A program made the position numbers and the translations under genes. This document shows, in pieces, positions 12,919 to 62,888 of a stretch of DNA of 64,000 nucleotides. The stretch spans positions 121,492 through 185,491 of the IMG/VR virus record IMGVR_UViG_3300026488_000011. One strand, 5' to 3'. Source of the DNA: a virus. Position 1 is the stretch's first letter. Every line of letters begins with the position of its first letter. The notes beneath the pieces were generated by a model that was not told where the DNA came from, did no database searches, and saw only the letters and a program-made list of their open reading frames with translations.

Positions 12919-12965
12919 ATTTCCTCCAATTATTTTAATCATAAAATCGAACAAGTAAAGACGGA

Positions 12966-25505: not shown

Positions 25506-25539
25506 TCATAGACACGTCGATGGATCGACGTGTCTATGA
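25506..25539 (-). terminator. Long hairpin after the first LamG fibre gene
   Basis: A perfect 15-bp stem (TCATAGACACGTCGA at 25506-25520 with its complement at 25525-25539) has a 4-base loop. The stop codon lies in the right arm. No clear U-tract follows on the minus strand, so it may be a processing or stability hairpin inside the fibre operon. The 100 bases beyond it hold only AT-rich leader of the next gene. Confidence 0.7.
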
Positions 25540-28419: not shown

Positions 28420-28433
28420 ATATCACTCCTTTA

Positions 28434-29285: not shown

Positions 29286-29286
29286 T

Positions 29287-30118: not shown

Positions 30119-30171
30119 TATTTATCCTTTACCATTAGGTAATTAATAATCACTGAAATGTTAAATAAAGT

Positions 30172-30201
30172 AGACTATCAGGGATTAATCCCTGATAGTC
30201 T
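30172..30201 (-). terminator. Terminator of gene 30185-30847
   Basis: A perfect 13-bp stem AGACTATCAGGGA/TCCCTGATAGTCT has a TTAA loop that is the stop codon. On the minus strand ACTTTATTTAAC follows. Confidence 0.8.
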
Positions 30202-30847: not shown

Positions 30848-31454
30848 TGGTACCTCCTTCGCTAGTACTGGTTGTCTCACTACTGTCGTCTGTTGTATAT
30901 CCTAATGTTTGCTTTATCTGCTCTTTAAAATCGTCAAGACCATCTAGAATAAGTTGTCTTAAATTAACTGCTTCTAAATCTTCCATAGTTTCTGCTGCTT
31001 CTATAAGCTGTTCTGCTTCCCATTGTTTACCAAACGCATATCTTACATATAAAGCTAGTTCAGTGATTAGTGTGTCAGCTTCGTTTATGTCCATTACTAC
31101 CATGTTTTTATCGTAATCTCTAAAAATAGTGTTAGGACTACCTATTTTCTGATCTGTTCTAATACCCCCATCATAGAGCATCACATCTAATGGTGTGGAT
31201 TGTAATTTAATCCCTTTAATACTCTCGTATCCTTCTCCTAGTATTTCATCTAGTTCTTCTTGTATTTCATTTTTCTTATCTTCTTTATCTTGTGTTAAGT
31301 CTGCTATAATAGTATTGGTTTCAGGATCCCATTTCAGAACACTGGCAGTAGGTATTACTCCTGAGTACGCTATGTAGCCAGGAGGAGTTAAATCGCCCTC
31401 CTGCGCAGGTAATATTTCTACTACAAGATCTCCGCTTACTTTAATAAAAACCAT
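30840..31454 (-). CDS. Hypothetical tail-associated protein (DUF4376-like helical core)
   Basis: This 204-residue protein begins with a beta-hairpin-like segment (FIKVSGDLVVEILPAQEG), then has an acidic coiled coil (TQDKEDKKNEIQEELDEILG). A central DUF4376-like part follows (GIKLQSTPLDVMLYDGG, RDYDKNMVVMDINEADTL) with a Ser/Thr/Glu-rich tail. Comparable modular proteins sit at 38478 and 20329. Function is probably fibre assembly or structure, inferred from context. The start follows AAGGAG. Confidence 0.4.
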   Translation of the reverse strand: MVFIKVSGDLVVEILPAQEGDLTPPGYIAYSGVIPTASVLKWDPETNTIIADLTQDKEDKKNEIQEELDEILGEGYESIKGIKLQSTPLDVMLYDGGIRTDQKIGSPNTIFRDYDKNMVVMDINEADTLITELALYVRYAFGKQWEAEQLIEAAETMEDLEAVNLRQLILDGLDDFKEQIKQTLGYTTDDSSETTSTSEGGTSE

Positions 31455-31466
31455 GATTTCTCCTTA

Positions 31467-33287
31467 TTAATAAATATTAGGTAGTTTTATCTTATTAGGA
31501 TAAACAACAGGTACTTTACGATACGGCGATAGTATGTAATCGTCGTTTCCTCCCCAAACATATACTTCGTTGTTATTAGTAACTAAAAAACATGCAAAAC
31601 TATATATGCCAGCAGGTACTTTAGCAAAGAACTTAATCTCATCGCCTCTAACCGGTACAGGTATCTTAACATATTGTAGCATATTGGTATTAACACCTAT
31701 ACCTAATTGGTAACGACCGTTATATCCAGTGCCATATATTCCATCCTTCTTGACGATAAAACTCTGATTAATATGGCATTCCTTAGGATGGTGTTCTTGA
31801 TTGTCTAATATCTTTATTACATCTGTAGCTACAGCTACCGGAGTAAGTTTCTTACCTTTTGATCCGTAACCTACCTGACCGTACCCGGAGTAACCCCATG
31901 AATATAGCACACCATCATCTCTCAGTGCTTTAACACATGAATAACCAGCTAATGCTATGTCTATAAAACGACCTGTCAAATCTAATGGTTCTACAGGTGT
32001 GTGTTGATCTGTGGTATTATTAGTTCCGCAGAAACCTTCTCCATTATAACCAGCTGATAGAATCTTAATTTCTCCTGTATTAGGATTTTCTATTAACATC
32101 GCTACACCGTTTACGGAGTTACCTATCTTATTGTTAAATGCTACTATCTTTTTAACAACAAATCCATCTCTTATCCAGTAGTCTGTTACATCTACGAATG
32201 TAGTAACCAATCCTTTAGTACCGTTACCGAACTGACCATTACCATTAAATCCTGTCATTAGGATTCTACCATCTTTTCTCAAGGCTATAGTAAAACCATA
32301 TCTAGTTCCAATGTTATAAATTTTCTCTACTTCAGTACCTAAATATTCTATTTTTGTAAAACTAGCTCTATCTCTGGTATCGCTTAATCCTAAGGCTCCA
32401 TTATCATTAAAACCTGCTCCATAGATATAACCATCTGATTTCTTAATAAATAGTCTATTATAATCAGGTTCATAGTTCCAGTTAGTAGGATCGTCGAAAA
32501 CATCTACTACATTTGTCGCTACTAATGTAGGAAATCTGATTACATTAGAATGCCCTGCACCGCATTGTCCTCTGGTATTTTTACCCCATGCATATAAGTT
32601 TCCATTCTCTAGTAATACATAGCTATTAGTATAATTATGGTATCCTATCTTTTTGATAGGTACATCTCTTTCAGGTATTAGTAATTGTTGTAGTGCTTTT
32701 ACGCTGATGTCAGCTACTTGATTAGCTGCTCCTCTACCAGAAGTAGGATTCAAAAATCCTGAATTACCGCCAGCTGCTACATATGCCTTACCATTTACTT
32801 TAAAGGTAATACCGTGTATACCGCCTTTTACGTCTTCTATAATATGTTCAGTACCTGTAATTAACCTCTGTAACTCTTTCGGATCAATGTTTTGTAATGC
32901 CTCTATTACAGGATTACCGTCTATTATTTCTTCCTTGGTAAAAACGTTGTCTCCGTTTAATCTATGTAACCTTAATTCTCCAGATTCAAATATTCCTAAA
33001 TAATAGAATCTAGGATCGAGCTCTACTTGATCTACCACATTTATTAGTTCACCATTTAGTAAGATCCTGTAGTCTTTTTTATTTGTCTTAGGTTTTAGTA
33101 AAATATAACTACCATCTTCTTTACTTACCTCTGACAATGTTCTTAGTTCGATTATTGTAGTATCGTCGCTAGTATCGAGTATGGCTTTACCTAATGCTAT
33201 TTCGGTGCTGTCTATAAATCTATCGCCAAACTTTAAAGATTTTTTGTCATCTACAAAGATAGTATTGTTATTAATTCCTAAACTCAT
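31467..33287 (-). CDS. Fibre-block protein with RCC1-type beta-propeller
   Basis: In this 606-residue protein, residues 200-600 contain at least six RCC1-like repeats: LYAWGKNTRGQCGAG, IYGAGFNDNGALG, ILMTGFNGNGQFGNGT, LYSWGYSGYGQVGYG, IYGTGYNGRYQLGIG and VYVWGGNDDYILSP. Each strand pair ends in xWGxNxxGQxG as in RCC1 propellers. The first 190 residues are separate and beta-rich, perhaps for virion attachment. Propellers of this kind bind proteins or glycans; here a receptor-binding or fibre-tip role is inferred from position between fibre genes. Confidence 0.75.
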   Translation of the reverse strand: MSLGINNNTIFVDDKKSLKFGDRFIDSTEIALGKAILDTSDDTTIIELRTLSEVSKEDGSYILLKPKTNKKDYRILLNGELINVVDQVELDPRFYYLGIFESGELRLHRLNGDNVFTKEEIIDGNPVIEALQNIDPKELQRLITGTEHIIEDVKGGIHGITFKVNGKAYVAAGGNSGFLNPTSGRGAANQVADISVKALQQLLIPERDVPIKKIGYHNYTNSYVLLENGNLYAWGKNTRGQCGAGHSNVIRFPTLVATNVVDVFDDPTNWNYEPDYNRLFIKKSDGYIYGAGFNDNGALGLSDTRDRASFTKIEYLGTEVEKIYNIGTRYGFTIALRKDGRILMTGFNGNGQFGNGTKGLVTTFVDVTDYWIRDGFVVKKIVAFNNKIGNSVNGVAMLIENPNTGEIKILSAGYNGEGFCGTNNTTDQHTPVEPLDLTGRFIDIALAGYSCVKALRDDGVLYSWGYSGYGQVGYGSKGKKLTPVAVATDVIKILDNQEHHPKECHINQSFIVKKDGIYGTGYNGRYQLGIGVNTNMLQYVKIPVPVRGDEIKFFAKVPAGIYSFACFLVTNNNEVYVWGGNDDYILSPYRKVPVVYPNKIKLPNIY

Positions 33288-33298
33288 ATTTACTCCTT

Positions 33299-33994
33299 TT
33301 AGATTATTTTAAGATATGCATTATCTGCTACAAATAGACTATCAAACCTAATGGGACCTACTAAGGTTCTATTATATCCCTCTTCTACTCTAATGGTAGA
33401 AAGGTATGCAGGATTAACTACACCAGCGTTGTTTTCATCTATAGCCATTCCTCCCTCTATCCTTATACCATTTTTGAAAATTACAGTATCCTCAAATGTT
33501 TTAATACCTCTAATATCATCGTCTTTATCTATTGTAACAAATTCTTCTCTTCTAATAGAAAAATCGAAGTCGGTAGGGACTATCTGACCTAATATATAAG
33601 GTAGGTCTAACCAGTGGGTAATACCGTCTCCTAACTTAAACCTAATTTGCTCATCGTCCAACTCAATACCTAACTGATTATTACCTAATACAGGATTAGT
33701 AGTTTCCCAAACTTCTCTGGTGTATTTCATTACTTCTAAAGTTAAGGGACTAGGAGATATGATGTATATCTTATTATCACTATTTTCTACGTCTATAGGT
33801 ACCGTATTATCCGTCACAGGTTCTAAGTTTCCTGTTTTTAAGTCATTTTCTAAGTTAGTAGAAACGAAATTTCTTACTACTATATAAAGATCATCTTTTT
33901 CGGAATCAGTAATTATAGTGTCTTTTCTATATGGTGTATTTGGTGCATATACCGGTATACTACTAGTACTACCGGAGTATATGATTTGTGCCAT
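33299..33994 (-). CDS. Tail-fibre-like protein
   Basis: In this 231-residue protein the centre has LGIELDDEQIRFKLGDG followed by ITHWLDLPY, the widely recurring phage-fibre motif LGxExDxxxxKxGDGxxxWxxLPY. An N-terminal VYAPNTPYRKDTIIT segment resembles a carbohydrate-module start, and a beta-rich C-terminus follows. It is probably a short fibre or a fibre-tip adaptor for the propeller protein encoded 12 bases downstream. AAGGAG precedes the ATG. Confidence 0.6.
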   Translation of the reverse strand: MAQIIYSGSTSSIPVYAPNTPYRKDTIITDSEKDDLYIVVRNFVSTNLENDLKTGNLEPVTDNTVPIDVENSDNKIYIISPSPLTLEVMKYTREVWETTNPVLGNNQLGIELDDEQIRFKLGDGITHWLDLPYILGQIVPTDFDFSIRREEFVTIDKDDDIRGIKTFEDTVIFKNGIRIEGGMAIDENNAGVVNPAYLSTIRVEEGYNRTLVGPIRFDSLFVADNAYLKII

Positions 33995-34032
33995 GTCTAC
34001 TCCTTACTATCACTTGTTCAAAAGAACTTATA

Positions 34033-34064
34033 GATTAATAGGAGACTATTGTCTCCTATTAATC
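34033..34064 (-). terminator. Hairpin after the second LamG fibre gene
   Basis: A perfect 14-bp stem GATTAATAGGAGAC/GTCTCCTATTAATC has a TATT loop, with the TAA stop in one arm. On the minus strand TATAAGTTCTTTTG follows, a weak U-tract. Confidence 0.75.
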
Positions 34065-37000
34065 AGATTCTTTAAATAGATTACCGTAAGCGCTTAATAC
34101 ACTAATGTTAGGTTTGTCAATCAGGAAACCTCTCTGTAGTTTTCTAAATCCGTTAACGGACACTACATCGTTAAATTTTACGACTTTTGTAACTGTATTT
34201 ACATCATAATCTGTTAATTCAATATTGTTAGAATCTACTACTTTTATTTTCTTACTAAGTCTTAAAGACTCTGGAACCTGTGAAAGATCATAAGTTAATC
34301 TAATTTTCTTGTATTCTTCTTTAAATAGCTTTTGAATCTCTGAAGGAGATAACGATCTGTTAAAGATTCTTAGCTGGTCTATAGATCCGTTCAAATATGA
34401 ACTTAATGTATCTCCGTAACGATGAACACCTAATAGTCCAGTCATGCCATCGTTAAATATTAAGTCACCTGTATAAGCAACTGTGTATGATTTAACACCA
34501 TTAATCCACAAAGTAATTGTTTTAGCAGTTACATCATGAGTAATTGTTAGCAACTTAGGACTGTTAAAGATGTCTTTAGGAAAATAATATATCTTTTGCT
34601 CATTATCTTCCGTTCCTTTTACGGTAAATTCAAAATATATACTATCGCTACTTCCTACGAGTACGCCTCCCTTGCAATCAGCGCTGCTTCCATCAGTGTC
34701 TAAATTTCTGATATTTAAAAACGTACCAGATCCATCAGATTGGAACCATCCAGAAACGGTGTATGACTTTTGTGTAAACACGTCGTCCAGATTACCTATG
34801 TTGATATAAGTATTTCCATCGAAATAGGCAGCATCGTCGTACTTACCAAGAGTGTAAAGTTCATTTCCGTTCCAAGTAGGATTATAATTGCCTAACTTGT
34901 CCTCTATGTTACCATCCATAGGCATGAATAATACAGCAGAATTATCTCCAAATGGATCAGGGTTATTTACTGTGCTGTCTAGTACTAACTCACCATTACC
35001 AATGCTAGTACCGGCATCTGTAATAATGTTAAAATCTTTATTTGCTATATCCACGATTTCTGGTTCTAAGATTTCTGCTTCGCTATCTGTCTTTGTTAAA
35101 ATGTTTTTAGGCCTATGCATAGGTAGTAAAACCCCTAGTCCTTCTACTGCAATCTCGCTAGGTACTATTATTCTTTTAATTTGTTCCTTGTAGAGACTGT
35201 ATACCTCGTCACTATTTAATACTCTACCAGTAATTCTAATTTGATCAATTTTATCTCCTGCAGATAAGAAATTATTATAGACCGTACTACCGTTATTATC
35301 ATCAATATCAGCGCCGAATACAATTGGTGTATTTATTATACTTCCAGGAATTTCAAAGAGATCCTCTGCTACTAGTTTTCCGTTAATACAAATGTTTCCA
35401 TTGTTGGTAACTACAATGTGATGCCATTTACCAGTAGTGAAATAATCATCCAGACTGGTTATAAATTTAGGATTTTCAGTACCAGCAACTACTGCGTATG
35501 TTGTTCCTACATTCCCGTTATGTGTACTCACTGCTACATTCTTCCATAATTGGAGTGTGTTTGAATTATCTTTACTAATAGTGAATATGGTTGTGTTATC
35601 GTTATTATCAGTAGTATTTTCTAGAGGATCGGTAGCTGGATAATACCAAAAACTTAATGAGAATTCATCTGGTAATGTATCAATATTTGTCTTTAGATAG
35701 CTGCTTCCATCGTATAGCAGTGCCTTGCCTCCGAATACTCCGTCGTCATATTGCTCAGTACCTATTACTTCTGCTGTATGATTTCCTGTAAGATCTTCTG
35801 TAGTAGACTTATCAAATGTAAATACTGCTACAACTTCACTATCTTCATTTTCAAATACATTAGCTTTACTAAGTGTACCTTCTAGGGTAATATCATCTTT
35901 AGTTAGTACCTTAGAACCTTTAGTAGTTAATAATATGTCTTCCTCGTCAACATTTGTAATAGGCAGGGCATTACTCTTAATAACGTTATCAGAACCTAAC
36001 TTCATTTCTACTGGTACAGTCTCAAACGTACTAAATACTTCTTCATCAGTATGGAATGCAAGTTTATCATTGCCTTTAAACGTTATTAATTTTGGTTCTT
36101 CTTCTAAGTTTAGATTTGAAATATCGTACACGTTACACTTCAATGCTTCATTGTACACTATAGAAGCTTCATTATCGTTTAGCACTTTCTTAAACAATCT
36201 TACTTGGTCTATGTAGCCCGTTACTGATATATTATATTTCGCGTCATATCTAGTTAAGATACCTAATTCAATAAGGTAATTGGATTCTTCGTTGCCTCCA
36301 CTATACAACCAGTCTTTGTTACTAGCACTTACAGTGTCCCCGAATACTAATTCGCCATTTATATAAATATTTAGATACCCAGTTGATTTATTGTATCCTG
36401 AAGTAACATGGTACCACTTATCAGGATCAATCTTAAACCCGGTTTTTGTCCATGTCCAGTTATCTTCACCTGCTGCGTATACTAGTTCACCATCACTGTC
36501 GATACCTAATTCATAAAGACGATAACCAGCATTAAGCAATGTGATATCGTATGTAGTGTCTCCGACTGTTGGATAATCGCCATTCCAGTTAAACCAGAAA
36601 CTCACTGTTAATTCATCATCGAGATAATCTGCTAACTTAGTAGATACACCGAATCTATGGTCTGGGTTAACTTTCAAGGCGTACCCGTATTTACCATTAG
36701 TAAACAGCGGGGTCACGTCGGCAGGATCTGGCGTGTCAGTATTATTATACGTGTTACCATCGGTTACTCTACCTGGGATATACTTAAATTCATTATCTAT
36801 GTTACCTTCGAATCTAAATAGTCCTATAGCCGAACGATCGCCTAATATATCTAGATACGTGACTCCTGCGCCATTTATAGTATTATAATCAATAAACGAA
36901 GCCTCTGTTTCCTCCATAGTATTGTCGTTTTTTATTAATAGCAAGTTTTTATTTTTACTTAACTTCATCATTATTTCGTCTATAACGCTTTCATCAGTCA

Positions 37001-37211
37001 CCGGCCTACATATATCACGAACTGCATTATAAGGCAAAACTACCTTGTCTTTTCCATATGGAAATAGTCTAAAACCTTTAGTAGTTAAGCTATTATCTTT
37101 AACACTAGTCCAGTTCTTATCTGTCGCGTCTTGCTCTACATATGTTTCCGCGTAAAACGCCTCTTTTGTTTTATCATAGATCCTGTTTTCAGGTGTAAAT
37201 AAAATATTCAT
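34059..37211 (-). CDS. Second tail-fibre/adhesin with three LamG-like lectin domains
   Basis: This 1050-residue paralogue of 25534-28419 has LamG-like domains at about 125-355, 450-690 and 765-985. Repeat landmarks are DGNIEDKLGNYNPTWNGNE, AAYFDGNTYINIG and SIDQLRIFNRSLSPSE, with diverged versions in the other two (YIDQVRLFKKVLND, KIDQIRITGRVLN). Both proteins share an N-terminal block around SVKDNSLTTKGFRLFP/SLRDNKVNIRPKEIPL and a C-terminal block FRKLQRGFLIDKP/YRAVQRGLVIEEP. Glycan binding at the fibre tip is the likely role. Confidence 0.75.
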   Translation of the reverse strand: MNILFTPENRIYDKTKEAFYAETYVEQDATDKNWTSVKDNSLTTKGFRLFPYGKDKVVLPYNAVRDICRPVTDESVIDEIMMKLSKNKNLLLIKNDNTMEETEASFIDYNTINGAGVTYLDILGDRSAIGLFRFEGNIDNEFKYIPGRVTDGNTYNNTDTPDPADVTPLFTNGKYGYALKVNPDHRFGVSTKLADYLDDELTVSFWFNWNGDYPTVGDTTYDITLLNAGYRLYELGIDSDGELVYAAGEDNWTWTKTGFKIDPDKWYHVTSGYNKSTGYLNIYINGELVFGDTVSASNKDWLYSGGNEESNYLIELGILTRYDAKYNISVTGYIDQVRLFKKVLNDNEASIVYNEALKCNVYDISNLNLEEEPKLITFKGNDKLAFHTDEEVFSTFETVPVEMKLGSDNVIKSNALPITNVDEEDILLTTKGSKVLTKDDITLEGTLSKANVFENEDSEVVAVFTFDKSTTEDLTGNHTAEVIGTEQYDDGVFGGKALLYDGSSYLKTNIDTLPDEFSLSFWYYPATDPLENTTDNNDNTTIFTISKDNSNTLQLWKNVAVSTHNGNVGTTYAVVAGTENPKFITSLDDYFTTGKWHHIVVTNNGNICINGKLVAEDLFEIPGSIINTPIVFGADIDDNNGSTVYNNFLSAGDKIDQIRITGRVLNSDEVYSLYKEQIKRIIVPSEIAVEGLGVLLPMHRPKNILTKTDSEAEILEPEIVDIANKDFNIITDAGTSIGNGELVLDSTVNNPDPFGDNSAVLFMPMDGNIEDKLGNYNPTWNGNELYTLGKYDDAAYFDGNTYINIGNLDDVFTQKSYTVSGWFQSDGSGTFLNIRNLDTDGSSADCKGGVLVGSSDSIYFEFTVKGTEDNEQKIYYFPKDIFNSPKLLTITHDVTAKTITLWINGVKSYTVAYTGDLIFNDGMTGLLGVHRYGDTLSSYLNGSIDQLRIFNRSLSPSEIQKLFKEEYKKIRLTYDLSQVPESLRLSKKIKVVDSNNIELTDYDVNTVTKVVKFNDVVSVNGFRKLQRGFLIDKPNISVLSAYGNLFKESD

Positions 37212-43181: not shown

Positions 43182-44222
43182 ATGAAGCCAGTGATATTTA
43201 CCGATATATTTGAACAAAACAGATTATTAATAAGTCTACCTAACACTACAGTAATTTATGTAAGAGATTGGACTAATGTAAAGATGATAAGTAGTCTTGA
43301 TGACAATGATAATGGTATTAGAAGATTAGGTTATTTTGGAGCTAAGTTTAATCCTAAGACTATTGAGGAGATAATATTGTTTAAAGAAATATCAGGATCT
43401 TATTTAGATATTCTTCCTGATTACGTGGAAATGTTAAGGAGACTGAAGAAACATTTTAATATTCCAAAAACGTATGTAGCGCATGACATACATCATTACC
43501 TTAACTCGATGGATGAGAAAAAGAAATACATTATTAAAATAAAAAACCAAGCTAGGGGTGTAGGAAAGCACTTTGTAACTAAAGATGAATTTAGACAAAT
43601 GCTATTTGAAACAGCATATATGGATAGCGAACAACATAGAGATCATGAGGCATTTATAAAAAAGTATAAAGTGGATACAGGTCTGACTAGATCAGAAACA
43701 GAAAAAAGAGTATTATATAAAGCTATAAAAGCATTAAGCGGAGAATGTCTAGTAATGCAAGAAGAAACGATGTTTACTCATGAGTTTAGAATTTTAATGT
43801 TCAAAAACGTAATGAAAAATAATAAGCCCTTACTAATAGTGGAAAAAAGAAAAGGATATAGACCCGGTTCTGAAGAAGAAAGAAAACACGAAGTAATAGA
43901 TTTTGATAGATTTATACTAGAGGAATTTAAGTCAGAAACATTATTAACAGACATATATGAAAAGTTAATAGAATTTAACAAAGATATGCCTCATTGTGCT
44001 GTATCACTGGATTTATGGATAAACGGAGACGAAATAACGAAAGATCACATTTATAACCCTAAGTGCTGGGGAATGTTTGAATACTCAAATGAGTTTGGCA
44101 TAGATTATCCTAGTAACATCTTATCTCAAATTACTGACCTATATAGCCTAGGTATGCTCAATTACTTAAACCTAGGTGACTGTGAAGACAGAAAATTATT
44201 AGAAGGAAAAATATATGGCTGA
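43182..44222 (+). CDS. ATP-grasp-like protein upstream of DNA polymerase
   Basis: This 346-residue protein has KYIIKIKNQARGVGKHFVT near residue 115, which resembles the phosphate-binding loop of ATP-grasp enzymes. ECLVMQEETMFTHEFRILMF near 188 fits the central strand with purine-contacting residues. AVSLDLWINGD then NPKCWGMFEYS near 267-290 fits the paired acidic/Asn metal site. ATP-grasp enzymes join a carboxylate to an amine or thiol. The substrate is unknown. The gene overlaps the polymerase gene by eight bases, so the two are co-expressed. The fold call needs a profile search. Confidence 0.45.
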   Translation: MKPVIFTDIFEQNRLLISLPNTTVIYVRDWTNVKMISSLDDNDNGIRRLGYFGAKFNPKTIEEIILFKEISGSYLDILPDYVEMLRRLKKHFNIPKTYVAHDIHHYLNSMDEKKKYIIKIKNQARGVGKHFVTKDEFRQMLFETAYMDSEQHRDHEAFIKKYKVDTGLTRSETEKRVLYKAIKALSGECLVMQEETMFTHEFRILMFKNVMKNNKPLLIVEKRKGYRPGSEEERKHEVIDFDRFILEEFKSETLLTDIYEKLIEFNKDMPHCAVSLDLWINGDEITKDHIYNPKCWGMFEYSNEFGIDYPSNILSQITDLYSLGMLNYLNLGDCEDRKLLEGKIYG

Positions 44223-45879
44223 GTTAAACTTACCTATAGAAGAAGGAGATATTGTAGAACCTCGCTTCATAACACACCTCTCTAAGAAAGAAGTAGGTGA
44301 AGACGTGCATATCGTAAGAGAACTTATTACTAAAAAAGACGGAAGAAAGATAGACAACATTAGGATAATTAAAAACTATAGGAGACCATTTTGGGTAACT
44401 AAACCAATATACAGAGACCATGATGAAAAGAAAGAATCCGAAGAATTAGCTAAAGTGGATATGTTTCTATCTACTGAGTCTGATTTAGCTAAAAACATAG
44501 CTCCTAGATTAGGAGATAGATATCAGGGAATTACTGACTTAGGTAGACTGAAAGATTCTCCTTATCTATATGGTATAGACGTAGACAGCAGGACATTTCT
44601 TAAATACAGTTATATAAAGAAATATGGAGGACATGTTACTCCGTACAGAGTGGGTACATTCGATATTGAGGTAAATGTAAAAACTAATGAAATTATTGTA
44701 GCTACTTTCGCTACACCGAAAAAAGTATCTACTTATCTATTAAAAAGTTTTATTAAAGGGATTCCTAATCCTGTAGAGAGGATAAAAGATACATATGACA
44801 AACATATTCCAGAACACAGTCTAGGTAATCCTGAATTAGATATAAGAATTTTCGATAACGAAGTAGACTTACTCAAAGCCATCTTTAAAACAGCAAACGA
44901 AGCTGATGTAGATTTTATGGCTATTTGGAACCTAGATTACGATATCCCTACTATTGTAGAGAGGTTAGAACATTTTGGAGTAAAACCAGAAGATGTATTC
45001 CATTATGAAAAGATTCCTGAGAAATATAAATTCTTTAAATATAAACAAGGTAAGAAACAGAAAGTAACAGAATCCGGTAAAGTCATTCCTATTAACCCAG
45101 AAGAACAATGGCATACCGTTAAGACTACATCCAATTTCTACATAATAGATGCTATGTCAGCTCATAGATATGTGAGGGTAGGAGGCAAGAATGTACCAGG
45201 AGGATACAGTTTAGACAATATTCTAAAATACGAAGGAGTAGCTAAGAAACTAAAATTCGATACAGACGAAGGCGTGAAAGGTATCGAGTGGCATATACAC
45301 ATGGTAGAAAATAAACCCATAGAGTATGTAGTCTACAACATCTGGGACGCTATGTCTATGCTAGAGTTAGATAAGAAAACAAAAGATTTGGAACTAGCTG
45401 TGCCTATCTTATGCGATATCAGTCATTTTGATGTATTTAACTCAGGTCCTAAAAAGTTAGTAGATGGATTAGAATTCTTTTATTTAACTAGAAAACGTGA
45501 TAAAAGAGTGCTAGGTGTAAGACCTAACAAAGTGGACAGTGATAAATTACTAGGTCTAGGAGACTGGATAGTCACAATGCCTGGTTATAGAATTAGAGAG
45601 AACGGGTTGAAAGTATTAGAAGAAGCAGAACATATACATACAAATATACGTAGTTTCGTATACGATAGTGATGCTGTATCTTCATATCCGTCAGCGACTA
45701 AAGCTGCTAATGTATCCAAGGATACTACACACAGAGAAATAATAGCAATAGAAGGTATTGAAATACCTGAACTAAAGAAACAGAATATCAATATGTTATA
45801 TGGAAAAACAAATGCAGTAGAATGGTGTAGCACGATGTTAAACTTCCCTAGCCTATACGAATTAGAAGTAGCAGTATAA
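44215..45879 (+). CDS. Family B DNA polymerase, exonuclease domain plus motif A only (split or truncated)
   Basis: This 554-residue protein has Exo I GTFDIEV near 147-153, Exo II IWNLDYDIP near 237-245, Exo III YNIWDAMSM near 374-382, and polymerase motif A DSDAVSSYPS near 484-493. It then ends about 60 residues later. Motif B (KxxxNSxYG) and motif C (DTDS) are missing here and in every other frame of the window. A strong hairpin follows the stop at once, so the ending looks genuine. The rest of the palm, fingers and thumb may be encoded by a separate gene outside the window, or this may be an exonuclease-only derivative. Confidence 0.75.
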   Translation: MAELNLPIEEGDIVEPRFITHLSKKEVGEDVHIVRELITKKDGRKIDNIRIIKNYRRPFWVTKPIYRDHDEKKESEELAKVDMFLSTESDLAKNIAPRLGDRYQGITDLGRLKDSPYLYGIDVDSRTFLKYSYIKKYGGHVTPYRVGTFDIEVNVKTNEIIVATFATPKKVSTYLLKSFIKGIPNPVERIKDTYDKHIPEHSLGNPELDIRIFDNEVDLLKAIFKTANEADVDFMAIWNLDYDIPTIVERLEHFGVKPEDVFHYEKIPEKYKFFKYKQGKKQKVTESGKVIPINPEEQWHTVKTTSNFYIIDAMSAHRYVRVGGKNVPGGYSLDNILKYEGVAKKLKFDTDEGVKGIEWHIHMVENKPIEYVVYNIWDAMSMLELDKKTKDLELAVPILCDISHFDVFNSGPKKLVDGLEFFYLTRKRDKRVLGVRPNKVDSDKLLGLGDWIVTMPGYRIRENGLKVLEEAEHIHTNIRSFVYDSDAVSSYPSATKAANVSKDTTHREIIAIEGIEIPELKKQNINMLYGKTNAVEWCSTMLNFPSLYELEVAV

Positions 45880-46267: not shown

Positions 46268-46295
46268 GTAATAGCTCGTTTAAACGAGCTATTAC
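46268..46295 (-). terminator. Terminator of gene 46292-47056
   Basis: A perfect 28-base palindrome (stem GTAATAGCTCGTT) has the TAA stop in one arm and is followed on the minus strand by CGTATATTTTTATTATT. Confidence 0.8.
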
Positions 46296-47056
46296 TTCAG
46301 TAATTTTACCAGGCTATAGTAATCTTCATCTTTAGCTAAATTATAAACAGACACACCTACATCTTTTAATTTCTTAGGGAACCAGTACCAGAAAGCCGTA
46401 TCCTTAGATTTACTAAAATCTATTTTCTTACCGTCGTAGTACGGGTCATAAACGATTGCCATCTCTAAAGCATCATCGTTCTTAGGTCCTAGTAATACAG
46501 TCATCAATGCGCTGTTAATGAACTTAACGGCTGTAGGTAGTTTGTCAAACTTAGGATAATAATAAGATGCTGTTTTGATATTATCATCGGTAGGAAACAG
46601 CTTCTTATACTTACCGGATTTACAAAACTTATCCCAAGGCTTGACTACCTCCACTTTATCCTCATCTATTGCTTTAGGCAGTATATCTAAAATAGGATTT
46701 ACGGTATTACATAAGAACCTTACTCTGTAATTAGCCATATCTAACAATTTTAGAATATTCCAAAACTTTTTCTTTTCCTCATCAGTAATTTCAAAGTTTT
46801 TATCAGGAAACACGATTGTGACAACTTTTCCTACTTTTAATTTATCAAGATCTAGAGGTTCAGCAGGTACTGGTTCTTTTTTGAACAAATCAATTTCGTT
46901 TAATCTCTTCTTCTTTTTCCAGTTGTTATTATCTTTAGATCTCCAGCTGTTTTTGCTAGGTGTATTATCCGACTTCTTTTCAAAAGTAGTCTCTGTGTAA
47001 TCTTTCTCAAATGTTCCTTCTTTTTCTTCCTCGAAAGAAAAATCAAAATCATCCAT
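46292..47056 (-). CDS. Hypothetical protein, possible SLOG/Rossmann-like nucleotide-binding domain
   Basis: In this 254-residue protein the first 65 residues are a disordered, charged tail (EEEKEG, KDNNNWKKKKR). Residues 75-254 alternate strands and helices (VVTIVFPD, YRVRFLCN, VEVVKPWD, FINSALMTVLLGP, MAIVYDPY, VGVSVYNLAKDED) in the manner of SLOG-type nucleotide-binding folds. The family is not firmly recognised. It is positioned downstream of the RNA-polymerase-like genes. I start it at 47056, where AAGGAG is correctly spaced. Confidence 0.4.
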   Translation of the reverse strand: MDDFDFSFEEEKEGTFEKDYTETTFEKKSDNTPSKNSWRSKDNNNWKKKKRLNEIDLFKKEPVPAEPLDLDKLKVGKVVTIVFPDKNFEITDEEKKKFWNILKLLDMANYRVRFLCNTVNPILDILPKAIDEDKVEVVKPWDKFCKSGKYKKLFPTDDNIKTASYYYPKFDKLPTAVKFINSALMTVLLGPKNDDALEMAIVYDPYYDGKKIDFSKSKDTAFWYWFPKKLKDVGVSVYNLAKDEDYYSLVKLLK

Positions 47057-47102
47057 TTTCACTCCTTAAATTTTATCTCATAGTAGGGTAAATAGTAAAT
47101 TA

Positions 47103-47129
47103 AGATCAGCTAGAATCACTAGCTGATCT
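47103..47129 (-). terminator. Hairpin after the beta-prime-like gene
   Basis: An 11-bp perfect stem AGATCAGCTAG/CTAGCTGATCT has a 5-base loop; the TAG stop starts the right arm. On the minus strand TAATTTACTATTT follows. Confidence 0.7.
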
Positions 47130-48402
47130 CATCATAGATATCGAACTCTGTTAGTTCTACAGAACCCGACTTATGCATCTTCTTAAGGGATTCATTTAGA
47201 ATAGCCCCGGATGTCTCAGTTACTAATAACGCAATAGCATTCTCTTTACCTTTTAATTTAGAAGAAGTACAGTAAACGCAATAATGATGTTCTAAGTTGC
47301 AATACATAGGTGTTCTCAATTTTATTGTTTTACCTATCAGGTTCTTTACATTTTCCTCAGTTATTTCTACTGTTTTTCCATTATTGTCGAAGTAATATCT
47401 ATATAAGTAGTTCTTATAATTGTCTTCAGTTATGAGTGTAGGGATATAAAATTTAGTTCCACAATCTTTATCTAATATTTTTATATCGTTAGTAGCTCTT
47501 AAGGATACCTTTGCAGCTACTCCTCCTTTTTGTGTCTCAGCTCCCCTACTGTACGATGCTAATCTACTATCGTTAAACAATAACGCTAGTTTCTCTGGAT
47601 CTTTAGGATATCCTTCGTATAGAGATGTTTCTAACAGTTTAGCTTTATTACTAGGCGTAAACTCCATAGCTGTACCATACATTATAAACATTTTCTTTCT
47701 AGCACCTACTACTTTACCAGAGATAAGTTTACCATACGCAGGATCTCCCTCTAACCACTCCCTGTCGTATTCTAATAATTTCTTTTCAAGCTCTGCTACC
47801 ACTTTCTTATCTTCTAGAGCATGTGGTCCATACTTCTTCTTTAGCTCTTCGATTAACTGCTTTTTATACTCTTCAATTCCTTCGGGAGGCAGAGACGATT
47901 TCTCGGTAATTGACACCGAAAATACTCTATTAAAATTCATTATGTATAATCCTGTATCCATATACTTTTTATACTCGGATACCGTAATCTTCTTATCTGC
48001 TTCAGGATCATCGTCGTTTACTAAGTTTTTCTCTATAATAGATTCGATGTCTGAGAACTTCATCTCTTTATTCATATACGGTATCTTATTTCCAAAGCAT
48101 TCCGCTAGAAGTAGATAATTCATTATTAGTCTACCTATAGTGGTTTCAATATCTTCAGTAAGATTAGTTATCAAGCCTTTAGGAGCCTTAATTTTTTGCT
48201 TAGGAGTTAGGAAAGGTTTATTACTCTCTATGGGTATCTCAACCTCTTTATCGTTTACCTTTAAAAATAATTTGCCTTTTTCTTTTCTAATATAATTGTC
48301 CTCATGCCCGTCTACTACAATTGTAAACATATCTGTAATCCAGGTAAGGTCGTTAGGCAGACCATTATCAAATGCATATTTTAAATAATCAATTAGTTTC
48401 AT
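47119..48402 (-). CDS. RNA polymerase beta-prime-like subunit (bridge-helix, zinc and trigger-helix region)
   Basis: This 427-residue protein aligns by eye with bacterial beta-prime from just after the catalytic NADFDGD onward. TTIGRLIMNY parallels TTVGRAILWM, and YMDTGLYIMNF parallels the IMYTGFAYAAR rim region. SRGAETQKGGVAAKV (285-299) matches the bridge helix, and DCGT (313-316) is identical. The zinc cysteines are 314, 368, 375 and 378, with CxxxxxxCxxC spacing identical to E. coli C888/C895/C898. SLKKMHKSG (405-413) parallels the trigger-helix TMRTFHIGG, keeping the His. It ends there. It is likely one subunit of a split phage RNA polymerase. It overlaps the upstream gene by 14 bases. 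Confidence 0.75.
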   Translation of the reverse strand: MKLIDYLKYAFDNGLPNDLTWITDMFTIVVDGHEDNYIRKEKGKLFLKVNDKEVEIPIESNKPFLTPKQKIKAPKGLITNLTEDIETTIGRLIMNYLLLAECFGNKIPYMNKEMKFSDIESIIEKNLVNDDDPEADKKITVSEYKKYMDTGLYIMNFNRVFSVSITEKSSLPPEGIEEYKKQLIEELKKKYGPHALEDKKVVAELEKKLLEYDREWLEGDPAYGKLISGKVVGARKKMFIMYGTAMEFTPSNKAKLLETSLYEGYPKDPEKLALLFNDSRLASYSRGAETQKGGVAAKVSLRATNDIKILDKDCGTKFYIPTLITEDNYKNYLYRYYFDNNGKTVEITEENVKNLIGKTIKLRTPMYCNLEHHYCVYCTSSKLKGKENAIALLVTETSGAILNESLKKMHKSGSVELTEFDIYDEIS

Positions 48403-49408
48403 CTTCTTCTCCGTAAACTATTTTTTCCAATCTGTCGAATAATTTCCTAAACTCTTCATTTTCTAAAATATCTGATCTAATCTTGTTGTTAATATCTTGT
48501 AACAATTGTTTAAGTTTATAAAATTCCAGACCAGAGATTATAGAAGATACTTGTTCTGGTAAATCTTCATAATCTTTGTTAATAATAGCTAATATGTAAA
48601 GGTCTACTAAAACGTCCTTTATAAGACTAATGATAGGGTTATCATTTGTAACACTATCTTCGTTTTCTAACTCAGATATCAAATATTTGAATTTCTTTAA
48701 TAAACCGCTTCTTAAGCTGTCATAGTTGTTCTTCATACCTACAATATAGTAAGGATCATTTATTATAAGTTCTAGAGTCTCTGGTAAAGTTTTTAAACCT
48801 AGTTTAATAAACCTATCCACTATCTTGCTTACTACGTCTGATGTCTTAGATGCTTCTGTAATACCGTCCATCGTAATATCAGATTTTGTAAGTATGGCTG
48901 TTACAGCATTTCTTATTTTCTCGATAAGTGCGTCCGGTACATCTTCTACATACTCCATGAGGTCAGTAGTATTAATATTAGGGTTAAAATAAAATAGTAT
49001 CAAGTATAACTTATCCAGGTTACTGTTATCGATACAATCATTCAGAATACCTTCTATATATAAAGCATCACCTATGTCCATGTTTAATAAACCATCAGAA
49101 GCTATTAGTATATCTACTATAAATCTTACTGGTATCATTGGTAACTTTTCGTTATCCAATATAATACCCCTTCTCTTTAATAATTGTAATGCATATTTCT
49201 TAGCTATATTAATCACAGCATCATGTCTCTGAATAGGATCGATGTTTACCTCATCCACGTCTGTCCAGTTTTCTAATTCTTCTATATAATCTTTAACGCC
49301 GTTAACGTCTAATTGCGTATAGATATAACTTATAGACTGTGCTAAATCGTCACTACCATATTTCTTAACAAGCTTATATATCTCATTGTCTAAAGGTATA
49401 AATTCCAT
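48389..49408 (-). CDS. Hypothetical protein coupled to the beta-prime-like gene
   Basis: This 339-residue, acidic, mostly helical protein has Ile/Leu/Asp-rich repeats (LDKLYLILFYFNPNINTTDL, ELIINDPYYIVGMKNNYDSL). No family is recognised. Its stop lies 14 bases inside the beta-prime-like gene, so the two are translationally coupled and may act together. It could be a polymerase accessory subunit, but nothing in sequence proves that. The start follows AAGGAG. It is divergent from 49508. Confidence 0.5.
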   Translation of the reverse strand: MEFIPLDNEIYKLVKKYGSDDLAQSISYIYTQLDVNGVKDYIEELENWTDVDEVNIDPIQRHDAVINIAKKYALQLLKRRGIILDNEKLPMIPVRFIVDILIASDGLLNMDIGDALYIEGILNDCIDNSNLDKLYLILFYFNPNINTTDLMEYVEDVPDALIEKIRNAVTAILTKSDITMDGITEASKTSDVVSKIVDRFIKLGLKTLPETLELIINDPYYIVGMKNNYDSLRSGLLKKFKYLISELENEDSVTNDNPIISLIKDVLVDLYILAIINKDYEDLPEQVSSIISGLEFYKLKQLLQDINNKIRSDILENEEFRKLFDRLEKIVYGEEDETN

Positions 49409-52606: not shown

Positions 52607-52634
52607 ATACAGACCTAAATGTCTAGGTCTGTAT
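52607..52634 (-). terminator. Terminator of gene 52615-54288
   Basis: An 11-bp perfect stem ATACAGACCTA/TAGGTCTGTAT has loop AATGTC and is followed on the minus strand by TCTTTTTTTATTTTG. The TAG stop lies in the left arm. Confidence 0.88.
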
Positions 52635-54288
52635 CTAAAACTTCTTTTTCTAAGATGTTATCGTCTTGGAATTTTCCTTCTAACATTGTTTCTAATAACG
52701 TCAATCTTTCTTTCATTTCATCATCTAGTAGAATTTTACCGGATTCTATGTCGACTTTTACAAACGGATTAATTCTAAATCTCGGTGAAGGCGACTTTTT
52801 CGTAAGATATAGAATGTTTCCAATGTAAAGATCCTCGGCATGCAAGTTTCTACTAAACGCAGGGAATGAAGCATTCTTATCTCTCTCTACTCCTCTACCT
52901 CTATTCTGGTCTTCTAGTATAGACGTAATCTTAAACGCATAGTTATCTCCAGAATAATCTACCGGCATTAATGCTATATTAGTACTGCCACCTTTAATAC
53001 TGCTAAAAAACTTTTTAGGAGTGAATTGTTTGTTGAAGACGTTTTCCACGTCTCTAGTAGTTATTCTTTCTCCTTTCTTGTTATACTCCTTTATAATTCC
53101 ATAGAGAGATTTGTTTATACTGGAGATTGTTTCAAACATTAGGTAATATAGTACGTCGATATACTTATTGTCTATCTGCGTAGATCTCTTTTCATAATTA
53201 AGAATTAACTTATCATAGTTCTTAATTATGTAGAAAATCAAATCATAAAAGTCATCAACATAGACGCCATTTTCTCTTAATTTTGACTCTATGATAGGAT
53301 CGATGTAGCTGTCGATCAAAGATAGATATTCCTCCATACTGGATAATATTTTTTCCTGTCTATAGTTGTTTCTGAAAATAGTCTTACCTAATAACATCAT
53401 CCAGAATTCTTTTTCAGGCATTTTACTTCTACCGCTTAAAATATCCGGTAAGAAATTACTGAACTGATTTAGTAGGTCAAATGTAGTAATTAAACTACCT
53501 ACAATGGTATCTACAACAGGACTTACTTTGTCTTTAGGTACTAGGATCTTAATATCATGTGGTGTGTAGTTATCATCATTTAGGATTCTAGGTTTCTTTC
53601 CTACTGTTTCATAGACCGTATAATCTTTTTTCATATCTTCAGGCACTATACCTTTTATAATTTTAGGTTTAAATCCTAGATATTTTTCAAATGCTCCATA
53701 AAAGCCATGCTTTACAAATAGATATAATGCCATAGGTACTTTCTGATTCGTACCTTCCACTATTTTGTAAGCATGAGCTGTTATTATGGATACAGGAGTC
53801 TTGAGTCCATCTTTTATAACGTTCTTCTCTATCCTTTTAAAGATTAATTTGTCTTTAAGTAATCTTAAGAATACTTCTTTAGTAGTAGGAGATATTACGT
53901 AGTCGGTCAATACAGGCACAATGCTGTATACCGCATCAGAAAGACTAATGATGGCACCTCTCTCCGTATACGGTAGATAAAGTACTCTATTAATGTCTTC
54001 TCCCCTGAAGTTAAAGCTGAATACCACCTTATAGAGAGTAGATTTAGACGTATCAAGAGTAGTCTTACCACTCCCTTTAAACTGCTCGTTGTAAGACTCA
54101 TATGGAGAAAGCATTCTCCAACCATTATAACTAAGACCTATTTCTGGTGGTAAGGTAGCTACTCCTGATTTTATAATGCTGTCTAGATAGTATGGTATTT
54201 TTTCCACCAATGGTCTTACTAGGCCATCCATTGCTTTGTGGTTGATAGGCTTTCTGACTTTATCTACGGTCTTTTTATTTAAAGACAT
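52615..54288 (-). CDS. Candidate RNA polymerase beta N-terminal-like subunit
   Basis: This 557-residue protein's C-terminal RNLHAEDLYIGNILYL (480-495) and FRINPFVKVDIESGKI (504-519) parallel beta RDVHPTHYG...IGLINSLSVYA and FLETPYRKVTDGVV. RVLYLPYTERGAII with YSIVPVL (101-127) recalls the GTFIINGTERVIVSQL stretch, and KVPMALYLFVKHGF (183-196) recalls KLPATIILRALNY. Each match is weak alone, but they occur in the same order. Size and order fit the beta N-terminal subunit of split phiKZ/AR9-type polymerases. The alternative is an unknown virion protein near the capsid gene. Confidence 0.4.
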   Translation of the reverse strand: MSLNKKTVDKVRKPINHKAMDGLVRPLVEKIPYYLDSIIKSGVATLPPEIGLSYNGWRMLSPYESYNEQFKGSGKTTLDTSKSTLYKVVFSFNFRGEDINRVLYLPYTERGAIISLSDAVYSIVPVLTDYVISPTTKEVFLRLLKDKLIFKRIEKNVIKDGLKTPVSIITAHAYKIVEGTNQKVPMALYLFVKHGFYGAFEKYLGFKPKIIKGIVPEDMKKDYTVYETVGKKPRILNDDNYTPHDIKILVPKDKVSPVVDTIVGSLITTFDLLNQFSNFLPDILSGRSKMPEKEFWMMLLGKTIFRNNYRQEKILSSMEEYLSLIDSYIDPIIESKLRENGVYVDDFYDLIFYIIKNYDKLILNYEKRSTQIDNKYIDVLYYLMFETISSINKSLYGIIKEYNKKGERITTRDVENVFNKQFTPKKFFSSIKGGSTNIALMPVDYSGDNYAFKITSILEDQNRGRGVERDKNASFPAFSRNLHAEDLYIGNILYLTKKSPSPRFRINPFVKVDIESGKILLDDEMKERLTLLETMLEGKFQDDNILEKEVLDTDLDI

Positions 54289-56449: not shown

Positions 56450-58561
56450 TTAAACAGTTTTCATTTGTACTGGAACTTTTCCAAGCACTGCATCGATATT
56501 TGTGATGTTGAATACACCTATTACTGGTAGGTTAGGTACATGTCTATATCTTGGCATAGTTGTAAGTTCAGTTCTTGTTGCACCGTTTACAGTTTTAAGA
56601 ACGTTAATTACTAACTCTGGGCTCCAGAAGCATTGACCGAAGTTTAATGGATTTGGTTCTTTATTTCTTGCATCGTCAAATACACCGAATGAGAATACTA
56701 CTTTACCTCTGATTAGTGGGTTAGCAGATGTTCTAATTTCATAGTTGAATTGTGCATCGTTTGCAATTCCACCATCTTCTAGTAAGAATTGACCAATTAC
56801 TGGATCTGTACCAATAATAATTGTAGGTTTAAGATCTGGTCTAAGTGTGCTTAATGCAATTCCATAGTTAGATTCTAGGAATGCTCTAGTAGCTGCATTT
56901 TTGATTTTTAATACAAGAGCTTTTCTAATGTCTTCATCTCTAGTATTGCTGTTAATAGAATCTACTAGTTGAGTTAAGTCTAATGTTTGTTCATCGAACC
57001 ATTTATTAACTAGTTTATCAGAAACACCAGTCATTTTCACGTCGATTGTTTTAGCTGTTCTTAGGTAATCGATAAGACCAGTTAATACTTTAAATCCGCT
57101 CATGTTCATTTTCGCTCTAGTAGCGTTGATTTGTGTATTTAAATATGTTGCGTCACCATCGTCACCATTTATTACTACTGGCAATTGTACAGTAATACCA
57201 GTTCTATAAGGTACTGTAAATACTTCTGTGTAAACATCAGCTGTTACCAATAGACCTCTCATTCTTGCGTTTGTGTTTGTTAGGTAAGCTTCTACTTCAA
57301 AACCTTCCGCTTTAAGAGTTTTGAACACATCTTCAAATTGTCCGTAAACTTCAGTTGTAGGATCTACAATGTTTCCTGCTGCATCAATAACTTGTACTAA
57401 TCTGAATTCGTTTACGTATACTGAAATGTCTCCGTATTGAGTGTTTCCACTACCGCTCATTACTAGTTTAAGTTTAGCTGTATAACCTTCTGGTAATCCA
57501 CCTAAGATTTGTGAATCAGCACCAGTAGCTGTTTTAGTCTCACCAGCGATCATTGCAAGATCTTCACTACTAAATGTAAGGATTAAATCTTTGCTATGGT
57601 CTCTTGTGCTGTATGTAAAGAATGCTGGTAATTGACTTAGATCATGTTTGAAGTATTCTGTAACTTCATTACCTTCACTATCTTTACCAGTTAGGCTGCT
57701 GTAAAGTGCAGTGATTTTCACATTAGCATCAAGTGCATCAGTTTCATCCATAGTTCCTCTAGCTAACATGCTATCAGTTTGAGAAATACCTAATAGGTTT
57801 ACTTCTTGACCAACTTTAAGAGGTGCTGTAGTTACGCTCTCACCATTATAGTTAACTACTGTTCTAAGTGCATCTACAAATTTGTCTGCTGATTGAGTTC
57901 TATAAACAGGAACTAATCTGTTTTTATCCACATCAATTTTCTCAGGATCATTTACAATTTTAACCAATGGTGTTTTATCAAACATAGTTTTGTTTACTGC
58001 ACCATCAATACTTCTTGTAACCTCTTTGATTACGCTGTCAATAACTGCTGTTACAGTAGCACCTGCTGATTTAGGGTCTACAGGAATGATTGGGAAGAAT
58101 AGTTCTACTACAGGGTCTTGTTGCATTACCATTGTGTTATATAGTACTGTGAAGAATACTGATGGTTTTACATTCTGACCATCGAATGCTTCAAAACCTG
58201 CACTAATATCATCTCCATCGAAAATTGTAGCATCAATTACTACAGCTTCGTTACCTACTTCTGGTAGGCTTCTGTTCTTAACGATTGTTTTAATTACTTC
58301 AGGTGTAGCTGTTGCGTATAGAGCTGCTTTTTTAGCTGCTTCTGCTACGTGTTCAGGAATTTTACCACCTTCAAGTTCGATTGTTTCAAAAGCTGCTTCA
58401 ATAGCGCTTTCTACAGTCGATGCTGATTCTCTAGCTGCTTCTGCAGTAACTGCATCAACGCCTTCAAATCCAGTTAAAGCTAATGCTGCATTTTTATTAG
58501 CTGATCCAGCCACAGCATCAAGTTCTCTCTTTAATACTTCTCCAAGTTTTCTAATGTTCAT
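56450..58561 (-). CDS. Probable major capsid protein (jumbo-phage type)
   Basis: In this 703-residue protein, an Ala/Glu-rich helical N-terminal region (residues 1-100) looks like a cleavable delta domain. The body is beta-rich, and a C-terminal segment FGQCFWSPELVINV, GATRTELTTMPRYRH, NLPVIGVFNITNI resembles the capsid proteins of large myophages (about 700-750 residues in phiKZ-type phages). Codon use is notably more Gly/Ala/Val-rich and regular than its neighbours, as expected for the most abundant virion protein. It has its own leader and a strong terminator. The prohead protease gene at 61356 would process it. Confidence 0.7.
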   Translation of the reverse strand: MNIRKLGEVLKRELDAVAGSANKNAALALTGFEGVDAVTAEAARESASTVESAIEAAFETIELEGGKIPEHVAEAAKKAALYATATPEVIKTIVKNRSLPEVGNEAVVIDATIFDGDDISAGFEAFDGQNVKPSVFFTVLYNTMVMQQDPVVELFFPIIPVDPKSAGATVTAVIDSVIKEVTRSIDGAVNKTMFDKTPLVKIVNDPEKIDVDKNRLVPVYRTQSADKFVDALRTVVNYNGESVTTAPLKVGQEVNLLGISQTDSMLARGTMDETDALDANVKITALYSSLTGKDSEGNEVTEYFKHDLSQLPAFFTYSTRDHSKDLILTFSSEDLAMIAGETKTATGADSQILGGLPEGYTAKLKLVMSGSGNTQYGDISVYVNEFRLVQVIDAAGNIVDPTTEVYGQFEDVFKTLKAEGFEVEAYLTNTNARMRGLLVTADVYTEVFTVPYRTGITVQLPVVINGDDGDATYLNTQINATRAKMNMSGFKVLTGLIDYLRTAKTIDVKMTGVSDKLVNKWFDEQTLDLTQLVDSINSNTRDEDIRKALVLKIKNAATRAFLESNYGIALSTLRPDLKPTIIIGTDPVIGQFLLEDGGIANDAQFNYEIRTSANPLIRGKVVFSFGVFDDARNKEPNPLNFGQCFWSPELVINVLKTVNGATRTELTTMPRYRHVPNLPVIGVFNITNIDAVLGKVPVQMKTV

Positions 58562-61355: not shown

Positions 61356-62093
61356 TTAAAAGTTGAGTATGATGTTTTCAGTAGTTTTAGGTAAATTACA
61401 TTTTATACAATCTATCACGCATTTACCATCTTCACAATTTCCTTCAAAACCAGATACTAGTTTTTCCGCAGATGCTGGATCAAGATCTACAGTAAGATCA
61501 ATGTCTTCCACGCCAGCAGCATTCCACTGTGAAGCATTCGCTATGCCGCCTTCATAGACATAATCCCACGTAGAGATAAGAATAAATGTCCTGATTATTA
61601 TATTACCTACACGTCTTTGGTTTACTAAAGATCTTATAGAGAAATATACATTTTCATCAGGATTTTCTAACGCCTCCTGTAGGATTTCTTTATGAGGTCC
61701 TTCTGGCTTTACCCAGCCATAGATTCTATATACAGGATATTTAAAACCAGGTTCTACTTTACCTAGATTTTTAATCTCAATAGCTTTGATATGTGCTATT
61801 TTGTTTTCAGGTCTTAGTTTAATTACTTCCCTAGATAGTTCAGCTCTGTCTTTAATATTAGAGACATCAGGATGTCCGTTCTCGGCTATCAAGATTCCAT
61901 TCTCTATTCTTCTATGTACTAGCGTACCGGGTCCTAAAACTTTCACAGGATCAGGTACTTCATAGTAGATTCCAGATCTGTTAAATGTATTAAACTCTCC
62001 TAGCACTACTTTATAGTATCCGTTCTCATCTTTTATAATAGGCTGTTTAATCCCTTTTTTATCTTTTTTACTTTCCAGCTTTAAGACTGTCAT
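61356..62093 (-). CDS. Prohead maturation protease
   Basis: In this 245-residue protein, GEFNTFNRSGIYYEV near 32-46 opens the domain. RRIENGILIAENGHP near 62-76 carries the catalytic His, IYGWVKPEGPHKEILQEAL lies at about 128-146, and VYFSIRSL near 153-160 carries the catalytic Ser. This is the layout of the T4 gp21/jumbo-phage prohead proteases that remove scaffold and capsid N-termini. An unusual C-terminal tail has four cysteines (CEDGKCVIDCIKC), perhaps a metal site or a region removed by autoprocessing. AAGGAG precedes the ATG. Confidence 0.75.
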   Translation of the reverse strand: MTVLKLESKKDKKGIKQPIIKDENGYYKVVLGEFNTFNRSGIYYEVPDPVKVLGPGTLVHRRIENGILIAENGHPDVSNIKDRAELSREVIKLRPENKIAHIKAIEIKNLGKVEPGFKYPVYRIYGWVKPEGPHKEILQEALENPDENVYFSIRSLVNQRRVGNIIIRTFILISTWDYVYEGGIANASQWNAAGVEDIDLTVDLDPASAEKLVSGFEGNCEDGKCVIDCIKCNLPKTTENIILNF

Positions 62094-62141: not shown

Positions 62142-62164
62142 TGAGAGAGTACTTTACTCTCTCA
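62142..62164 (-). terminator. Terminator of gene 62154-62888
   Basis: A 10-bp stem TGAGAGAGTA/TACTCTCTCA has a 3-base loop and is followed on the minus strand by TGTGTTTTCTTTTG. The TAA stop spans loop and stem. Confidence 0.8.
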
Positions 62165-62888
62165 CTACGTGTTCTAAGTCTGAAATTTCTTTTTCTGGAT
62201 CTAATATAGCAGATACTATACCTAGCTCCATATATGCTCCAGCTACTTTAGATAGCGTAGAGTTAAAAGAATAGAAAATATTCTCTAGTCCTACCCAAGC
62301 CAGTGATTCCGGAATTTCTTTCCCCGCTTCATTTACATAGTTTCTGTATTGTATTTTTTTATTATCCTTATACCTAGCAATAATAGAAGTGAGTAATTCA
62401 AACGTCATTCTGTTATTTGCTGCTTTTGTACCGGTATATTTTTTCATCTTAGCAAACACATCTACTGGATCTCTATAATTCAAATACCAAGGCATTTTTC
62501 CTTTAATAAGTAATGTGTCAAATATATCAAACATAAAATCTACTTCTTTCACCACTCTAGCATCTGAGATAAGATCAGTATTTGCTTCAAACTCTAACAT
62601 CACATATTCAGTGTCATCTATTAAGACTTTTTCTATCTCCATAGGCATCATTTGTAATCTACCTGGTATTTTTAATACTGTATATTTTTCTGTATCAGGA
62701 TCCACTATTGCTATAATGCCTAGGACATATGATTCTACGCCTAAGTCTGTCAATCCTTTGTCAACAAACTTTTGAGGAAATAGGACTATTAAATCTTTCT
62801 TGGTAACTACCTTGTTATCAGATTGTTTTAGTATAGTCTTAAAATATTCAGGATCACGTTTAAATCCTGAGATGTCTATGCTAATCAT
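62154..62888 (-). CDS. Hypothetical virion-block protein
   Basis: This 244-residue protein is beta-rich in the first half (VLGIIAIVDPDTEKYTVLKI, GRLQMMPMEIEKVLIDDTEY) and helical in the second (KAANNRMTFELLTSIIARYK). No family is recognised. It lies between the prohead protease and an Fn3-like tail protein in one minus-strand run, so a structural or assembly role is likely. AGGAGTCAGT precedes the ATG. Confidence 0.5.
   Translation of the reverse strand: MISIDISGFKRDPEYFKTILKQSDNKVVTKKDLIVLFPQKFVDKGLTDLGVESYVLGIIAIVDPDTEKYTVLKIPGRLQMMPMEIEKVLIDDTEYVMLEFEANTDLISDARVVKEVDFMFDIFDTLLIKGKMPWYLNYRDPVDVFAKMKKYTGTKAANNRMTFELLTSIIARYKDNKKIQYRNYVNEAGKEIPESLAWVGLENIFYSFNSTLSKVAGAYMELGIVSAILDPEKEISDLEHVVRE

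Follow-up and report, generated by a model that had tools for sequence, protein, structure and literature searches.

In phages of the phiKZ type, the virion RNA polymerase (vRNAP) has been described as an assembly of five parts: N-terminal, Mid and C-terminal fragments of beta', together with N- and C-terminal fragments of beta (PMC7598289). In phiKZ, gp80 co-precipitates with gp180, gp178 and gp149 (PMC10612078). The 431-aa gp42 of phage SPN3US is listed as the Mid fragment, beta'M, and is a head protein that is lost together with the betaN subunit (PMC5105663). Packaging and injection of the vRNAP are known from phiKZ and SPN3US (PMC10612078, PMC5105663). The split was placed at the boundary of conserved regions a16 and a17, the beta'In6 insertion site following a16 directly, and the missing regions a17-a20 were assigned to SPN3US gp244 and phiKZ gp176 (Thomas 2016), from which the beta'C role of these proteins derives (PMC5105663). 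A split phage polymerase with a Mid-beta' subunit has therefore been described before (Thomas 2016; Sokolova 2020).

The locus described here lies in a 64,000-nucleotide stretch of viral DNA (the window), corresponding to positions 121492-185491 of a 185,491-bp virus record, G000; positions refer to the window unless given as G000. An open reading frame on the minus strand (47119..48402) starts with ATG and encodes a 427-aa protein orthologous to phiKZ gp80 and SPN3US gp42. It is almost certainly the beta'M subunit of the vRNAP of a phiKZ-type nucleus-forming phage. The basis computed here comprises homology, conserved motifs, the presence of all parts, synteny and a promoter-like motif. The sequence-only reading of this DNA had favored a phiKZ/AR9-type multisubunit polymerase in split form, with the protein as one of its subunits, and was correct, as the partner fragments are all encoded in the same genome. 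It had also suspected a "differently cut" enzyme. This holds relative to the non-virion polymerase only, while the cut itself is the published vRNAP division into N-, Mid- and C-beta' (PMC5105663, PMC7598289).

Residues 1-426 of the protein match positions 1-432/433 of phrog_2962 ("RNA polymerase beta subunit") with an E-value of 5.4e-112. A tblastn search recovered 297 phage records, 280 of them covering at least 80% of the query, and one related record is annotated as "putative virion-associated RNA polymerase beta' subunit". PHIKZ080 (phiKZ gp80) is 28% identical across 100% of the length, and the protein of a sibling phage is 59% identical over the whole length (E 5e-164). A scan of viral contigs yielded a single locus when the protein alone served as the query and 45 loci with an alignment. 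The protein is a divergent new member of a family that is known and already annotated; it does not represent a new kind of enzyme. It shares full-length homology, motif order and chain ends with phiKZ gp80, 201phi2-1 gp139 and SPN3US gp42 (all phrog_2962), from which it differs by its identity of about 28-30%.

The fragment carries a bridge helix, a four-cysteine zinc site and a first trigger helix, at the position and on the strand proposed earlier. The bridge helix (47491..47598, minus strand; residues 269-304) is built around an SxSRGAxT core, and R286, G287, T290 and G294 of this region are invariant in 34 aligned sequences. Equally invariant among the 34 aligned relatives are D313, C314, R363, C368, C375, C378 and H410. 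Four of these form the zinc site (47269..47463, minus strand), where C314 of a DCGT motif joins the triad C368-x6-C375-x2-C378. All four align with the zinc cysteines of AR9, phiKZ and bacterial beta' in profile comparison with the PDB. The site had been thought to repeat the E. coli spacing. The triad does reproduce that of C888/C895/C898 (7, 3), but the DCGT cysteine is separated from it by 54 residues, not 74. In phiKZ gp74 the spacing is 53/9/3 (PMC8287921), and in phiKZ gp80 the first gap of the triad is longer than in the C-x6-C-x2-C arrangement found here. The first trigger helix (TH1; 47164..47238, minus strand; residues 389-413) contains the expected conserved histidine, H410, in the last helix of the chain. 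The bridge helix, the DCGT motif, the four-Cys zinc site and the trigger-helix histidine are in common with E. coli RpoC (about residues 735-940). Compared with bacterial beta', this protein stands alone, has its own N-terminal segment of about 160 residues and a shorter zinc loop, lacks DFDGD, and has no known alpha or omega partners.

Structural comparison supports the same assignment. A Pfam scan of the ORF returned no family, and a single-sequence phmmer search found no match in the PDB. Beta' chains were reached only with the 34-sequence profile (AR9 gp154, 6e-8; phiKZ gp74, 8e-7; bacterial beta', 1e-6), its E-values for the non-virion polymerases of AR9 and phiKZ and for bacterial beta' spanning 6e-8 to 6e-4. 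In an AlphaFold model with a mean pLDDT of 84, the bridge helix is a single 36-residue helix (269-304) and residues 389-413 form the terminal, first trigger helix. The pLDDT drops to about 50 in the middle of the bridge helix, which fits a helix modelled apart from its partners. Foldseek against the PDB gave a best E-value of 3.2e-9 with a probability of 1.00. RNA polymerase structures made up all of the best 50 matches listed, the AR9 non-virion polymerase among them. The low TM-scores (0.33-0.42) and high rmsd (about 18 Å) arise because domain placement is not fixed in the isolated chain. The model, Foldseek and the PDB profile searches thus all lead to RNA polymerase beta' chains, the structural match to the bridge-helix and zinc region that the sequence-only reading had anticipated. 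Together with the PHROG and sibling matches, they exclude chance resemblance.

The core shared with bacterial beta' is also shared with the second, non-virion (late) polymerase of these phages, whose C-terminal beta' fragment is gp74 in phiKZ and gp154 in AR9; bridge helix, zinc site and first trigger helix are common to all. The ORF might on this ground be a gp74-type beta'C of the late enzyme: the gp74 family, phrog_3015, is its second-best PHROG (E 9e-14), and hhalign against that family gives 98.2% (E 6e-14). That reading is nevertheless very improbable. The phrog_3015 match is confined to residues 308-379, and the score is 52 bits to the gp74 family versus 376 bits to phrog_2962, the gp80 family. 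A separate gp74 orthologue exists in the same record (G000 9383-11401; phrog_3015, E 6e-119). The gene, moreover, sits in a gp79-gp82 neighborhood, and its product is without the C-terminal part that gp74 keeps.

This neighborhood follows that of phiKZ, where gp79 shares 14 bp with gp80 just ahead of gp81 and the DNA polymerase gp82. Here, too, the upstream gene (48389..49408, minus strand) overlaps the beta'M gene by 14 bp. It is the positional counterpart of gp79, a structural head protein, to whose family it shows a weak profile match (E 0.001, probability 22%) in addition to synteny. Close downstream of the beta'M gene, as in phiKZ, lies a gp82-like DNA polymerase gene (44215-45879). A 256-aa ORF (46292-47062, minus strand) occupies the gp81 position and has a weak match to a DprA-like PHROG (E 0.017).

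The source genome is a divergent phiKZ-type nucleus-forming phage. It encodes a chimallin-like protein (phrog_4795, E 4e-24), a PhuZ-like tubulin (phrog_4733, E 9e-41) and a large terminase of the phiKZ type, found by search with phiKZ proteins. A phiKZ-type major capsid protein was located at 56450-58561 of the Pfam-scanned window. The two ends of the record carry a common 127-bp direct repeat, so the genome, of about 185.4 kb, is probably represented in full. This size is not unusual, as chimallin phages span 167-322 kb (PMC10299810). Elsewhere in the window, large ORFs at 21959-37211 (minus strand; 1148, 961, 606 and 1050 aa) mostly lack a clear counterpart in a sibling phage, and the genes flanking them are mostly 40-70% identical to it. 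This is likely a variable region, possibly one of tail or host-recognition genes.

If the ORF encodes one part of a vRNAP, the other parts are expected in the same genome. Polymerase subunits were located by searches with phiKZ proteins, ORF reading and PHROGs. They comprise a gp180-like beta'N carrying GADFDGD (G000 110278-111903; E 1e-94), a gp178-like betaN (G000 105985-110199; E 1e-118), a gp149-like betaC (G000 61371-62045; E 2e-36) and a beta'C candidate. The latter (62154..62888, minus strand; 244 aa) is the orthologue of phiKZ gp176 and SPN3US gp244 (tblastn with gp176, 26% over 241 aa, E 1e-28; phrog_2926, E 7e-57). It is present on 25 of 28 contigs bearing the beta'M gene. Next to it, as in phiKZ, lies a head maturation protease gene of the gp175 type (61356-62093, minus strand; phrog_3014, E 2e-45). 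The full set that the sequence-only reading had proposed to look for is therefore encoded, although beta' is complete only if the published assignment of gp244/gp176 is right. The catalytic motif, already noted as absent from the ORF, was found only in the gp180-like gene.

A beta' fragment devoid of the catalytic DFDGD could instead be a regulatory mimic that binds the host polymerase and redirects it, the alternative offered by the sequence-only reading. The partner fragments, all encoded by the phage itself, speak against such a role, as does the invariance of the bridge helix, zinc site and trigger-helix histidine, expected of catalytic parts. Co-precipitation identifies orthologues of the protein as vRNAP subunits, and phiKZ develops independently of the host RNA polymerase (PMC10612078, PMC7598289). 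A host beta' mimic is thus not supported, and we give it next to no credence.

Alongside the vRNAP genes, the genome holds a non-virion set of gp55-, gp68-, fused gp71/73-, gp74- and gp123-like genes. The gp123-like betaN (52615..54288, minus strand; tblastn E 1e-22; phrog_2943, E 3e-85) lies within the window and belongs to this second set, not to the vRNAP. The C-terminal part of the non-virion beta, interrupted in phiKZ (gp71 and gp73), is encoded here by one continuous 746-aa ORF (G000 11394-13634, minus strand). In the gp55-like gene for the non-virion beta'N (G000 99546-102964, minus strand), two group-I-like introns appear to cut the catalytic motif. Between them lies a 9-nt micro-exon, TTCGACGGT (Phe-Asp-Gly), and predicted splicing would yield KAPNGDFDGDEMN. 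The first intron holds an HNH endonuclease ORF (G000 100384-101673), and an HNH gene interrupts phiKZ gp55 near the same site. The sibling phage, G001, has the same layout (G001 178650-182090, minus strand). Rfam returned no group I match for these introns, the first of which straddled the two stretches searched.

The C-terminal end of beta'M, recognized in the sequence-only reading as a stop after the first trigger helix, falls 17 residues past H410. The end is nearly invariant: 44 of 45 relatives terminate 16-17 residues past this histidine, and one has an extension. The length is conserved as well, at about 424-472 aa among relatives. Both ends of a normal beta' are missing, which might suggest the decaying remnant of a once larger gene. 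Both, however, match published vRNAP split sites, and the sibling phage retains 59% identity over the entire protein; given also the conserved length and chain end, decay has hardly any probability.

The profile alignment of beta'M to phiKZ gp74 extends to gp74 residue 395, and the trigger-loop insertion of gp74 comprises residues 396-533 (PMC7618050). The virion enzyme is therefore cut where the non-virion enzyme has its insertion. While gp74 and gp154 run through the insertion domain to the beta' C terminus in one chain, beta'M ends at the start of the insertion. The published a16/a17 split and beta'In6 site (Thomas 2016) imply that two chains contribute to the trigger loop, the element that moves during nucleotide addition; no statement to this effect was found in the literature that could be searched. 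In the vRNAP of phiKZ-type phages, the first helix of the loop would end beta'M and the remainder would start, or lie within, beta'C, a proposition to which we assign even chances. As part of the same reading, and with its prospects just as evenly balanced, the loop would be cut at its tip, the site of the E. coli SI3 insertion.

A second trigger helix was sought in the beta'C candidate. An AlphaFold model of the 62154-62888 product has a pLDDT of 81, with an unreliable C-terminal segment of about 40 residues. Neither the PDB profile search nor the Foldseek matches listed contained an RNA polymerase. Its hhalign comparison with gp74 570-656 was weak (E 0.015), a control region giving 0.076. 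In view of the hhalign result and the lack of RNA polymerase matches, trigger helix 2 is not claimed for beta'C.

In the enzyme proposed here, the bridge helix, zinc site and TH1 come from beta'M and the DFDGD magnesium site from beta'N (gp180-like). The gp178-like betaN and gp149-like betaC would form the other half, and the gp176-like beta'C would presumably contribute the clamp hinge. With no alpha or omega subunit, these chains would come together, pass into the head and be injected with the DNA. From AT-rich early promoters, the injected vRNAP would then transcribe early genes, those for chimallin and the non-virion polymerase included. For the phage described here, packaging, injection, assembly and activity are inferred from the orthologues.

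A candidate for these promoters is an AT-rich 11-base motif, TATATTACTAA, with 45 occurrences in G000 at up to one mismatch. Eighteen of the 45 are intergenic, against an expectation of 7.4% intergenic DNA (p about 1e-9). Examples on the minus strand lie at G000 52047, 52158, 56274, 8390, 17463 and 99280. Two sites are upstream of the chimallin-like gene, and the gp71/73-like gene is preceded, at 52 bp, by a related sequence. In phiKZ, the identical 11-mer occurs 80 bp upstream of gp54 (chimallin) and 41 bp upstream of gp68. The intergenic sites fall nearly all outside the window, and the intergenic enrichment lies outside the structural region. Inside the window, the motif shows no enrichment, which fits late genes, and its relaxed form has no match in the 300 bp preceding any of the vRNAP genes tested. 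Motifs of about 10 nt, likewise AT-rich, were described as vRNAP promoters (PMC7598289), and TATATTACTAA may represent the early (vRNAP) promoter of the phiKZ type.

This phage extends the vRNAP family to a lineage that is about 28% identical to the cultured members and carries full virion and non-virion polymerase sets. The invariant chain end of beta'M at the first trigger helix also raises the question of whether the catalytic cycle of a multisubunit RNA polymerase can proceed when its trigger loop is divided between two chains.
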